A stretch of DNA of 22,281 nt from a virus. The stretch lies in IMG/VR virus record IMGVR_UViG_3300030380_004261, positions 1 to 22,281 of that record; one strand, given 5' to 3'. A program made the translations under genes and the position numbers. Positions 1,778 through 4,625 of this stretch are shown here, one piece after another; within the stretch, counting starts at the first letter, position 1; every line of letters begins with the position of its first letter. The notes below the pieces were generated by a model. It was not told the origin of the DNA. It worked only from the letters and a program-made list of their open reading frames with translations, and ran no database searches.

Positions 1778-3286
1778 CTAATAGTATTCCACTGGTCTTC
1801 TGTATTTTGGTTCGTCATCCCAGTCATCGCTTTCTGCTCGAACCCATCCACCTTGGCGAAATCTTAACAGAGCCTGTGTGGTACTGTCAACTAAGTCATC
1901 GTGATCGCCAGAGGGAAAAGAGGCACATTCCTCTATAACCTCATCAGCCCACCGTGTGGGTGGATACCAAACAGTGCCACTCGAAAACAAATCCGTTACG
2001 GCATTTACTCTGGCAATCTTATCGTTACCTCTGGTAGGTGTAAACTCCGTGACAGGTATACCCATAGCACGAAGCTCAAACATCAAAGGCGCACCTGATG
2101 CCTTTGCTTCAACAACCATCTGGTCTGGCTCCCATTCCATATATTTGTCATACGCTGCTCGTTTTAATTCTGGAAACTCCAGTTTTGCCTTGAACGAATC
2201 AAGCAGTATCAAGTGTGTCTTTTCTATCCCTGTAGTTTCATCAGGATGATAAAACACACCCCAAGTGGTACACGCACTATAGTCACTACGCTCTGTTTTC
2301 AGAAACGCTGTATCCCAAGACTGTATTATCGCCTCACAGGGGGGTGGGTTATTGCTATCCCACAATCTCCACCATTCTCGTTTTATTAACGCTCCCTCTT
2401 CGGATGTAGGGTTTTGCTGATACTGAGCGTTCCATTTGGCAACTGGCAATTCAGCTTTTAGACTTTCCAACTCCTCTAACTTCCAGAACTCTCCCCACAA
2501 TGCCTTTCCTGACGGCATGATCGCAGGCAACTCAATAACTTCCCAATCGTCAATCCCTGACTTGTTCTCCATGCTTTTTAGTATCTGACCTGTTAAATCT
2601 CTCTTAGCCCATCGTGTCATCACCAAGATAATCGCACCACCTGGTTGTAATCTCTGCCGTGGTCCTGAAGTATACCATTCGTACACCTTGTCATACACCT
2701 CTGGGTTATACTGCCCTAACTGTGCCTCCTGTTCCGAATGCGGATCATCAATCACCAAAACATCAGCACCCTTACCAGTTACAGCACCACCAACACCAAT
2801 AGCAAAGTAATCGCCACCCTTATTCGTACTCCACCGTCCTGCAGCCTTACTATCAGCCGATAAACTAATACCTTTGAATATCTTTTGATAATCTGGTGAC
2901 TGTATCAGGTTTCGCACCTTCCTACCAAAACCAACAGCTAACTCAGCCGTGTGTGCCGTCTGAATAATCTTTTTATCTGGGTATTGCCCAAGAAACCATG
3001 CAGGAAATAAGTAAGAGGCAAACTCCGACTTGGTGTGCCGTGGGGGCATATTAATGATCAATCTCTTCAATTCCCCTCGTGCCACCTTCTCAAATGCCTC
3101 CGCCATAATCTTGTGATGCGATCCACCAATAAATGCCGACCACATCATATGCACAAAAGGCAAGAAACCCTCCTTGGCACTCTCCCTGCCCTTGGCTTCT
3201 TCATACTTCTCCAGTAATTCCAATATCTCCCTCTTTTGATCCAGAGGAAGTAAATCAATCTTATCCTTGAATTGGGATAACTCCAT
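1778..3286 (-). CDS. terL: Terminase large subunit (ATPase-nuclease)
   Basis: Motor that docks on the portal, pumps DNA with ATP and cuts the concatemer. 502 residues, the usual size. N-terminal ATPase: a Walker A-like MPPRHTKSE at residues 80-88 and Walker B VLVIDDPHS at 176-184, followed by the coupling-type segment ILVMTRWAKRDLTG. C-terminal RNase H-like nuclease: QSWDTAF with Asp325, VEAKASG with Glu393, and GDHDDLVDS with Asp463/464/467, matching the TIGR01630-type C-domain. The ATG overlaps the stop of the HNH gene (TAATG), so the two are translationally coupled. All key residues are present and it appears intact. Confidence 0.97.
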   Translation of the reverse strand: MELSQFKDKIDLLPLDQKREILELLEKYEEAKGRESAKEGFLPFVHMMWSAFIGGSHHKIMAEAFEKVARGELKRLIINMPPRHTKSEFASYLFPAWFLGQYPDKKIIQTAHTAELAVGFGRKVRNLIQSPDYQKIFKGISLSADSKAAGRWSTNKGGDYFAIGVGGAVTGKGADVLVIDDPHSEQEAQLGQYNPEVYDKVYEWYTSGPRQRLQPGGAIILVMTRWAKRDLTGQILKSMENKSGIDDWEVIELPAIMPSGKALWGEFWKLEELESLKAELPVAKWNAQYQQNPTSEEGALIKREWWRLWDSNNPPPCEAIIQSWDTAFLKTERSDYSACTTWGVFYHPDETTGIEKTHLILLDSFKAKLEFPELKRAAYDKYMEWEPDQMVVEAKASGAPLMFELRAMGIPVTEFTPTRGNDKIARVNAVTDLFSSGTVWYPPTRWADEVIEECASFPSGDHDDLVDSTTQALLRFRQGGWVRAESDDWDDEPKYRRPVEYY

Positions 3287-3492
3287 TATTGCTTCTTTCG
3301 GTTTTTCTTTGCCGATACCACACGAAGATTCTTTTTCCTATTGTTTTTAGGATTGCCATCCTTGTGATCAATATGTTTCCCATCACCCTTCTTGACTTTC
3401 CCTTGGCGTATCGCTGCCCTACGATTCTTATTGCGTAAAGCCCTCTCCTTCTTCATTTTATCAGAGGAATGATATTTTTTGTATTCAGACAA
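3286..3492 (-). CDS. HNH-family protein next to terminase
   Basis: Small HNH protein whose motif GDGKHIDHKDGNPKNN, followed by LRVVSAKKNRKK, is the compact phage form with paired His and downstream Asn residues. HNH proteins beside terL are known to stimulate terminase cleavage at cos sites, so a packaging role is likelier than homing. I place the start at the TTG at 3492 (68 aa, beginning SEYKKYHSSDKM), preceded by AAAGGG. An upstream GTG at 3540 would add 16 residues unlike known homologues and would lie inside the palindrome array. The ATG at 3456 is another option. Its last base is shared with the TerL start. Confidence 0.82.
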   Translation of the reverse strand: MSEYKKYHSSDKMKKERALRNKNRRAAIRQGKVKKGDGKHIDHKDGNPKNNRKKNLRVVSAKKNRKKQ

Positions 3493-3509
3493 AAGATTTC
3501 CCTTTACAG

Positions 3510-3562
3510 ATATGGTTAACCATATATCATGGTATACCACATACCATGATTAACCAAACATA
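3510..3562. promoter_or_regulatory. Tandem palindromic operator array, 17-bp period (locus 1)
   Basis: Three units begin at 3512, 3529 and 3546, exactly 17 bp apart: ATGGTTAACCAT, ATGGTATACCAC, ATGATTAACCAA. The first lies within a perfect 16-bp palindrome (3510-3525). The array sits just upstream of the HNH-TerL operon. A dimeric DNA-binding protein is the natural reader, either operator- or iteron-like. Function is inferred. Confidence 0.6.
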
Positions 3563-3581
3563 TTATGTAATAATATGTATT

Positions 3582-3617
3582 ATGGTATACCTTGAAAAGA
3601 AACATGGTATACCATGT
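3582..3617. promoter_or_regulatory. Two further ATGGTATACCAT palindromes between divergent genes
   Basis: ATGGTATACCTT at 3582-3593 and the perfect 16-bp palindrome ACATGGTATACCATGT at 3602-3617, 22 bp apart. The latter is identical to 14826-14841. A possible weak plus-strand promoter, TTGAAA (3592-3597) and TGTAAA (3615-3620) with a 17-bp spacer, would have the second palindrome in its spacer, which fits repression of the gene starting at 3639. Confidence 0.5.
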
Positions 3618-3638
3618 AAAACATGAAAGGAGTTTATC

Positions 3639-3869
3639 GTGGTAATTGAACCATTCTTAATGTGGAACCTCTTAATCACCTTAGTGATTGCACCACTGGC
3701 GTGGTACATTAAAACACAGCGTGACGAAATAAAACGTATCGATATACTCCTCAACAAAACCAGAGAGCAATACATGAACAAGGTTGAACACAGAGATGAT
3801 ATCAACCGATTGTTTGAACACCTATCCAGATTAGAAAACAAAATAGACACCTTATTAACGTCAAAGTGA
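3639..3869 (+). CDS. Small membrane-anchored coiled-coil protein
   Basis: 76 residues starting at GTG, with a good AAAGGAG 7 nt upstream. Residues about 5-22 (LMWNLLITLVIAPLAWYI) form one membrane segment. The remainder is a charged heptad-like helix (EIKRIDILLNKTREQ to SRLENKIDTLL), so the protein is probably anchored with a long coiled coil. This layout resembles XhlA-like or spanin-like lysis accessory proteins, but no signature proves it. It is the only plus-strand gene within the leftward packaging block and separates terS from the HNH-terL pair. The opposite-strand ORF here looks like a shadow. Confidence 0.75.
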   Translation: MVIEPFLMWNLLITLVIAPLAWYIKTQRDEIKRIDILLNKTREQYMNKVEHRDDINRLFEHLSRLENKIDTLLTSK

Positions 3870-3907
3870 TATTTGGCATTTTTTACCAAATTATTTGAGC
3901 AGATTAC

Positions 3908-3963
3908 TATATATATATGCGTGTATGTGTGTGCGTATACATGGGGGGTGGGGGTAGGTGGGG
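3908..3963. other. Alternating purine-pyrimidine run followed by G-rich tract
   Basis: From 3908 to 3943 every base alternates pyrimidine and purine (TA steps, then GT/GC steps) for 36 nt. A G-rich tract with runs of six, five and four G at about 3943-3963 follows at once. Such runs can adopt Z-DNA, and the G tract is quadruplex-like, although only three runs have three or more G. TTGGCAT (3873-3879) and its inverse ATGCCAA (3993-3999) flank it. No gene fits here. It lies next to terS, so a packaging or replication site is possible. Confidence 0.5.
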
Positions 3964-4000
3964 TCTATTTTTTATGGTTTTTAGGTGATTTAATGCCAAA

Positions 4001-4025
4001 AAAAAATAACATAATGTAGATTATG
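4001..4025 (-). terminator. Possible terminator downstream of terS
   Basis: Read on the minus strand, a 6-bp stem CATAAT/ATTATG with a 4-nt loop (4010-4025) is followed by TT, A and a run of nine T. The stem is short and AT-only, so it is weak, but the U-tract is long. It lies about 27 nt past the terS stop. Confidence 0.4.
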
Positions 4026-4051
4026 CGCCAAACTATAGCTAAGTTATTGTT

Positions 4052-4525
4052 TTATATGACTTTTAACTTTTCAAGTTTCTCTTTTAGCTTGTTTTCTAGG
4101 CTCTGAAGGTCTGAATCTGCTTCTTCAACTTCCACTTTGTCCACAAATAGTCCAATTGTTTTCCCAATTAAATGCAAACTCTGAACCCTTGCTGAGTCAC
4201 TTTCTGCGTTTTCTGCTTCGAGCCTTAGCCGTTCCAAAACGTAGGCTTCTAATCTTGCCCTCTTAGTTCTGATATCTTCAGCTTTATCTATGGTTAACGC
4301 TTTTATTCTTGCTACGATCTTGCTATTTGCCATTAAGCGACTCGCATTCTCGTGTATTGTCTTGGCTGCTTGATTTCTGCTGTAACCTGATTTTATGTAA
4401 GCTTCGTTCTGAGCCATGCCTTGACTGATATAATGGCAAAACTTCTCTTGCTTATCTGTTAACCCTGAAAGCCTATCTAAAACCACCAACTCAGGTTTAT
4501 TGTTTGATTCGTTTTTTTCTACCAT
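4052..4525 (-). CDS. terS: Terminase small subunit
   Basis: Recognises the packaging site and loads TerL. The core LTDKQEKFCHYISQGM, then NEAYIKSGYSRNQAAKTI, then ASRLMANSKIVARI matches the Terminase_2 (PF03592)-type N-terminal helix-turn-helix, followed by a long charged helical C-terminus (EEADSDLQSLENKLKEKLEKL) suited to oligomerisation. I choose the ATG at 4525 (157 aa) because an AAAAAAGGTG lies 6 nt before it. The longer start at 4564 adds 13 residues and has no Shine-Dalgarno. It is unusual in being separated from terL by a plus-strand gene and about 500 bp of structured DNA. Confidence 0.88.
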   Translation of the reverse strand: MVEKNESNNKPELVVLDRLSGLTDKQEKFCHYISQGMAQNEAYIKSGYSRNQAAKTIHENASRLMANSKIVARIKALTIDKAEDIRTKRARLEAYVLERLRLEAENAESDSARVQSLHLIGKTIGLFVDKVEVEEADSDLQSLENKLKEKLEKLKVI

Positions 4526-4625
4526 TTCAACACCTTTTTTCATGGTTTTTAATCTTTTTAACATAATTTATTAATTTTTTTTTATCAAGCTCATACACCT
4601 TTTTTTATTGGCTATTGGTGTACTT

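Follow-up and report, generated by a model that had tools for sequence, protein, structure and literature searches.

A bipartite element upstream of terL in a largely uncultured tailed-phage lineage is a candidate site for the start of DNA packaging

The window, by which we mean the whole stretch of DNA analysed, is a 22,281-base virus record from IMG/VR that also enters our locus set as L001. Its terminase genes lie on the minus strand. The small subunit, the proposed reader of the element described here, is encoded by terS (4052-4564, 170 aa; phrog_51, 3e-18), and the large subunit, the proposed nuclease and motor, by terL (1778-3286, 502 aa; phrog_38, 2.5e-103). PHROGs also identified a minus-strand HNH endonuclease gene (3286-3540, 84 aa) between the element and terL. 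The element occupies part of a gap, 3870-4051, bounded by orf76 (plus strand, 3639-3869) and terS. A reading made from the sequence alone had described a non-coding gap beside terS and an HNH protein near terL, and both are confirmed. Elsewhere in the window, several palindromes (GGTATACC three times, and GGTTAACC) occupy 3500-3620, where the HNH gene and orf76 diverge, and look operator-like. Two adjacent small proteins encoded on the minus strand (1101-1541 and 1548-1766) carry a near-identical motif toward the C-terminus (KRGGVVKMRGGGM and KSGGVMKMRGGGM) and have no PHROG match. When TerL was compared with solved structures there was no match at 1e-5, with weak matches at 1e-4 and above.

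The composition of the gap is as far from background as the sequence-only reading had claimed. Purines and pyrimidines alternate without a break for 36 nt (3908-3943), while the runner-up run in the window is 12 nt and the maximum in 200 dinucleotide-preserving shuffles was 19. The alternating run continues directly into GGGGGGTGGGGGTAGGTGGGG, with the runs of six, five and four G that had been noticed: G6 at 3943-3948, whose first G is the final base of the alternating run, G5 at 3950-3954, then GG, and G4 at 3960-3963. There are 17 G within 23 nt here, and shuffled sequences (n=50) reached at most 14. The flanking inverted pair TTGGCAT/ATGCCAA is also present, within TTTGGCATT (3872-3880) and AATGCCAAA (3992-4000), but it is not conserved. 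A check of 12 close relatives showed the left arm in L002 and L003 alone, so the inverted repeat is no conserved part of the element and looks incidental.

Read on the minus strand, the strand of terS and terL, the order is ACCCCACCTACCCCCACCCCCC, alternating spacer, ATATATATAGTAATCTGCTCAAATAATT. The C-box, ACCCCACCTACCCCCACCCCCC, matches the profile at 3943-3964 and is the G-rich tract of the plus strand. It is followed by a spacer of near-fixed length with register-free purine-pyrimidine alternation (3917-3942) and by the right box, ATATATATAGTAATCTGCTCAAATAATT (3889-3916), which co-varies with TerS. The 36-nt run reaches beyond the spacer into the right box. Across relatives the architecture is a C-box ACCCCACCYACCCCCACCCCCC, a spacer of near-fixed length and a right box resembling ATACATAGTATTYTGCACACAAAATT. 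The unusual composition of the window is thus explained as a C-box plus a flexible spacer.

The sequence-only reading had named unrelated sequence in the gap of relatives as grounds for abandoning it; instead, relatives carry the same element. The gap is 95-100% identical in close relatives, with the 36-nt alternation present at all 12 loci checked. Where TerL is about 70-85% identical, both boxes are retained and the intervening sequence differs. A free-gap pattern, in which the boxes could lie anywhere from 12 to 42 nt apart, matched 41 viral contigs, and every span was 56 or 57 nt. Run first on 270 loci plus the window, an iterated profile matched 206 of these 271 sequences, with a single copy per sequence among the matches listed, and in all 202 listed loci holding both element and terL the element was upstream, on the terL strand. 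We then enlarged the locus set by scanning for the C-box and the right box and by searching contigs of bacterial genomes for TerL, and left aside 33 remote loci from bacteria or archaea (L315-L350 except L317, L322 and L334). The profile matched 329 of these 469 sequences, again with one copy each among the matches listed, and the element was upstream of terL on the same strand in 297/297 listed loci that hold both. Reversed sequences searched with the same profile as a control gave 0 matches. The loci are partly redundant, the 329 copies being 196 distinct 90-mers. The pattern scans are biased toward the C-box or the right box, other relatives having been found by TerL or TerS, and the TerL and C-box scans give counts of at least this size, as more relatives exist.

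Whole records gave a similar picture. Each of 21 IMG/VR records had exactly one match, in one case the right half only, located at base 1 of its contig. Of a further 25 records 24 gave matches, with two apiece in G034 and G042 and one at chance level only in G031. Both second matches are partial, and the one in G034 (locus L487) lies beside the first. L031, L214 and L219 form a clade in which an additional, incomplete C-box, ACCCCACCTACCC and then ATATATG, lies about 100 nt past the right box; this clade's partial C-box is near the second match of G042.

Clustering the copies at 85% identity left 67 nonredundant versions. In these, C-box positions 1-8 are 94-98% conserved, and T53, A56, C67, C69, A70 and A75 of the right box are 86-98% conserved. 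Copies become weaker in relatives whose TerL is near 55-67% identical to the query, and the profile matched 0/6 named phage records with TerL 35-57% identical. Synechococcus phage MinM2 and Planktothrix phage Pag-Yong1 have a common look-alike directly after terS, which we spotted by eye against L070. Among terL loci with more than 2 kb of upstream sequence, a few (L033, L061, L087 and L180) have no element or a weak one. BLAST searches for isolates with the window copy and three variants returned short chance-level matches or none. The phage records OQ594354, OL906435 and PP438419, from different cyanobacteria, are each 65,014 bases long with the same TerL match and different starts, and are probably one phage. 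The exact C-box strings appeared in no paper of the literature searched, which excludes most subscription journals, and a title-level look at papers on pac or C-rich, intergenic and alternating-DNA topics, with subscription journals again mostly outside it, found none announcing such an element. This is a real and widespread bipartite element without a description in the literature searched.

The spacer is conserved in a different way from the boxes. Counted in alignment columns, it measures 26-30 nt across 66 of the 67 nonredundant copies, the remaining one, with a spacer shorter than 20 nt, having been set aside. The sequence-only reading had proposed looking for the alternation in relatives, and it is conserved there: 69.7% of spacer steps alternate, compared with 50.9% after shuffling each spacer, and 62 of the 66 exceed expectation, although the copies are related by descent and p-values for alternation therefore overstate their independence. 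The 28-nt flanks on either side fall slightly below expectation (-0.05 and -0.04). Alternation is kept without conservation of sequence. In the left half of the spacer, 22 versions less than 65% identical to one another have a mean pairwise identity of 0.29, and their alternation is 0.73, which is 0.21 above shuffles. Early in the spacer, most columns are close to half purine, so no register is common to the copies there.

The sequence-only reading had taken this DNA to be Z-prone. The steps favour TA (1.7 times expectation) and CA/TG (1.34-1.46), not the CG expected for Z-DNA (1.0-1.25), with AA/TT at 0.2-0.4. Enrichment of TA and CA together with depletion of AA/TT points to flexibility and the avoidance of A-tracts rather than to Z-DNA. 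The longest strict run has a median of 9 in the 67 copies, which makes the 36 nt of the window an extreme. L081 has a 34-nt run of different sequence, while L010 and L098 reach at most 12, so the strict 36-nt run is dispensable for the element.

A profile of the TerS relatives matches the small terminases of SF6 (3zqp, 3e-11) and Pam5 (21di, 2e-13). In 70 representatives whose TerL differ by more than 5%, right-box distance follows TerS distance once TerL is controlled for (partial rho 0.24, p 0.005), and does not correlate with TerL when TerS is controlled (-0.05, p 0.82). At four levels of redundancy the right box tracks TerS given TerL with a partial rho of 0.17-0.28 (p 0.003-0.01); these correlations are modest, and the sequences are related and hence not independent. 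The spacer shows the reverse, its distance following TerL given TerS and not TerS given TerL, a pattern that resembles what drift along the lineage would produce. One locus counts against tracking by TerS: L010, with a TerL 98% identical to that of the window and a TerS only 39% identical, has nearly the same right box.

The surrounding genes are less constant than the element. Among the matches listed, terS precedes the element in 284 loci and does not in 16, most of which have the order element-terS-terL; in two of the 16, L422 and L400, open frames overlap the element. Gene order thus shifts around a retained element. It lies anywhere from about 57 to 2993 nt from the terL frame, and its linkage to terL persists while terS and the HNH gene vary. 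HNH-type nucleases are known to cluster near terminase genes (PMC10448857), and the sequence-only reading had offered the HNH protein as a clue to packaging. Counting the position between element and terL alone, an HNH gene is present in only 62 of 297 listed loci, so it is a clade-specific neighbour and probably lies outside the packaging mechanism. One MAG contig of 61,206 bases, NYWC01000010.1 (loci L308 and L309), has terL at both ends, within 3,667-base end repeats that are 99.6% identical.

The conservation of the element, its single copy, its fixed orientation upstream of terL and the co-variation of its right box with TerS make it a pac-like candidate. Judged from comparative sequence evidence, it is probably a site of terminase recognition and packaging initiation in a large, almost entirely uncultured lineage of tailed phages. 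The packaging half of the earlier suggestion of a pac or cos site is thus well supported, and the cos half is not. More tentatively, the element may represent a new class of packaging site that is read partly by shape: two boxes at a near-fixed distance and a spacer selected for register-free alternation, that is for flexibility, and not for sequence, common to an uncultured lineage in which TerS and gene order change. We regard this further step as possible rather than probable.

We infer the following sequence of events. A ring-forming small terminase of the SF6/SPP1 class would bind the right box and the C-box, which are about five helical turns apart. The alternating spacer, rich in TA and CA and poor in A-tracts, would let the DNA bend or kink between them. 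TerS would thereby position TerL to make its initial cut within or close to the spacer and to thread the terL side into the procapsid, presumably in headful mode.

The main alternative is a cos site, where every genome unit would receive staggered nicks from the terminase, possibly helped by the HNH protein in the manner of HK97, leaving fixed cohesive ends. The element adjoins the terminase genes, as a cos site would, and the HNH gene adjoins terL in the clade of the window. The ends of assembled metagenome contigs, a weak test for genome termini, show no sharp pile-up at any position. In 96 element loci whose left side is a contig end, five starts fall 0-100 nt upstream and 11 at 200-300 nt, and every other 100-nt interval as far as 1.6 kb has 1-7; these 96 exclude starts not known to be contig ends, loci from the TerS search and the free-gap pattern, and duplicates. 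Starts spread over about 1.5 kb argue against a cos site. So does the fact that most contigs cross the element, only two of 76 right-box contigs beginning within 30 nt upstream of the box. About seven contigs do begin inside the element, at differing positions, and a few right ends stop there, also scattered. With starts spread and stops scattered, assembled contig ends mark no cut. The right end of L379 and the left end of G016/L441 meet within about 2 nt in the right box, as cohesive ends might, but by a rough count of the possible pairs this is unremarkable.

Long records are consistent with this. In two of ten, of 59.5 and 60.9 kb, the ends overlap exactly, by 52 and 77 nt, as in circular assemblies; in three others the ends share sequence at an offset, and in the remaining five they have none in common. 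Both of the exactly overlapping records carry the element internally, an arrangement consistent with permuted or concatemeric DNA and mild evidence against a dominant cos end. The similarity of TerS to that of SF6, of the pac-type SPP1 group, also counts against cos, as does the lack of an HNH gene between element and terL in 235 of 297 listed loci. An HNH-linked cos of the HK97 kind was rejected because the gene is mostly absent from that position. Overall we consider a cos site unlikely. Contigs that run through the element fit a headful pac site, where later headful cuts give permuted ends.

The sequence-only reading had also suggested a replication origin or a nucleosome-free landmark, and nothing pointed to either. 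An origin, or another replication element present once per genome, could use the alternating A+T-rich part as an unwinding region; there is one copy per genome, and TA-rich alternation unwinds easily. We think this very unlikely, since orientation relative to terL is constant wherever both are present, the primase/helicase gene of the window is 9 kb away in the same record, and the co-variation is with TerS, in a comparison that covered TerS and TerL only. A transcription element of the terminase operon (a promoter, an antitermination signal or an RNA signal) seems slightly less likely again. The element is always co-directional with terL, some right boxes (L391 and L393) contain TATAAT, and SPP1 pac is likewise described as overlapping promoters (PMC6316719). 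Set against this, we found no consensus RNA structure, no Rfam match in the window and no sigma-70-like site in the window element, and the distance to the terL frame varies as given above. We know of no counterpart of the C-box and its fixed spacing among promoters. The least likely proposal, to which we give almost no weight, is that Z-DNA or a G-quadruplex is itself the function: perfect alternation does lie beside G-runs in the window copy and the canonical G3+ pattern (four runs of at least three G with short loops) is found in 33 of the 67 nonredundant copies, but the window copy lacks it, for all that it had been called quadruplex-prone, the spacer steps favour TA and CA/TG over CG, and the boxes are conserved letter by letter.

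If the element is a pac-like start site, its signature marks the predicted start of packaging in hundreds of sequences from uncultured phages, a prediction testable with existing virion reads. It would also offer a comparative example of a terminase site where selection acts on the flexibility of the DNA itself and not on its letters alone, with a bearing on how small terminases single out viral DNA.

Known packaging sites share parts of this design. The lambda-type cos, with its parts arranged cosQ-cosN-cosB, is likewise a multipartite terminase site with defined spacing. It is given as about 200 bp (PMC4669245). The cos of HK97 is also a terminase signal beside terS and terL, and HNH adjoins the terminase in the clade of the window. 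PMC10370121 describes DNA bending as central to recognition by HK97 TerS, which binds, 15-29 bp downstream from the cut, a 15-bp site dependent on an A-tract. In contrast, the spacer of the element avoids A-tract steps, HNH is mostly absent and a fixed end is not seen in contigs.

The closest parallel is the headful pac of SPP1 and SF6 (pacL-pacC-pacR), which also lies beside terS and terL and is read by a TerS of the same sequence class. In SPP1, gp1 binds pacL and pacR, gp2 cuts pacC, which lies between the two, and the majority of pac sites in a concatemer escape cutting (PMC6316719). There are thus two recognition parts in both systems, with the cut between them in SPP1. Flexibility of pac DNA has also been proposed to matter, SF6 TerS being argued to rely on it (PMC4737164). 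SPP1 pac differs in overlapping the start of terS and its promoter (PMC6316719), whereas the element usually follows terS. It differs also in form, the element being a compact bipartite unit of about 80 nt with a C-box and an alternating spacer, in or near which the cut would fall. Two boxes with a flexible stretch between them, beside terS and terL, fit the logic of SPP1/SF6 pac.
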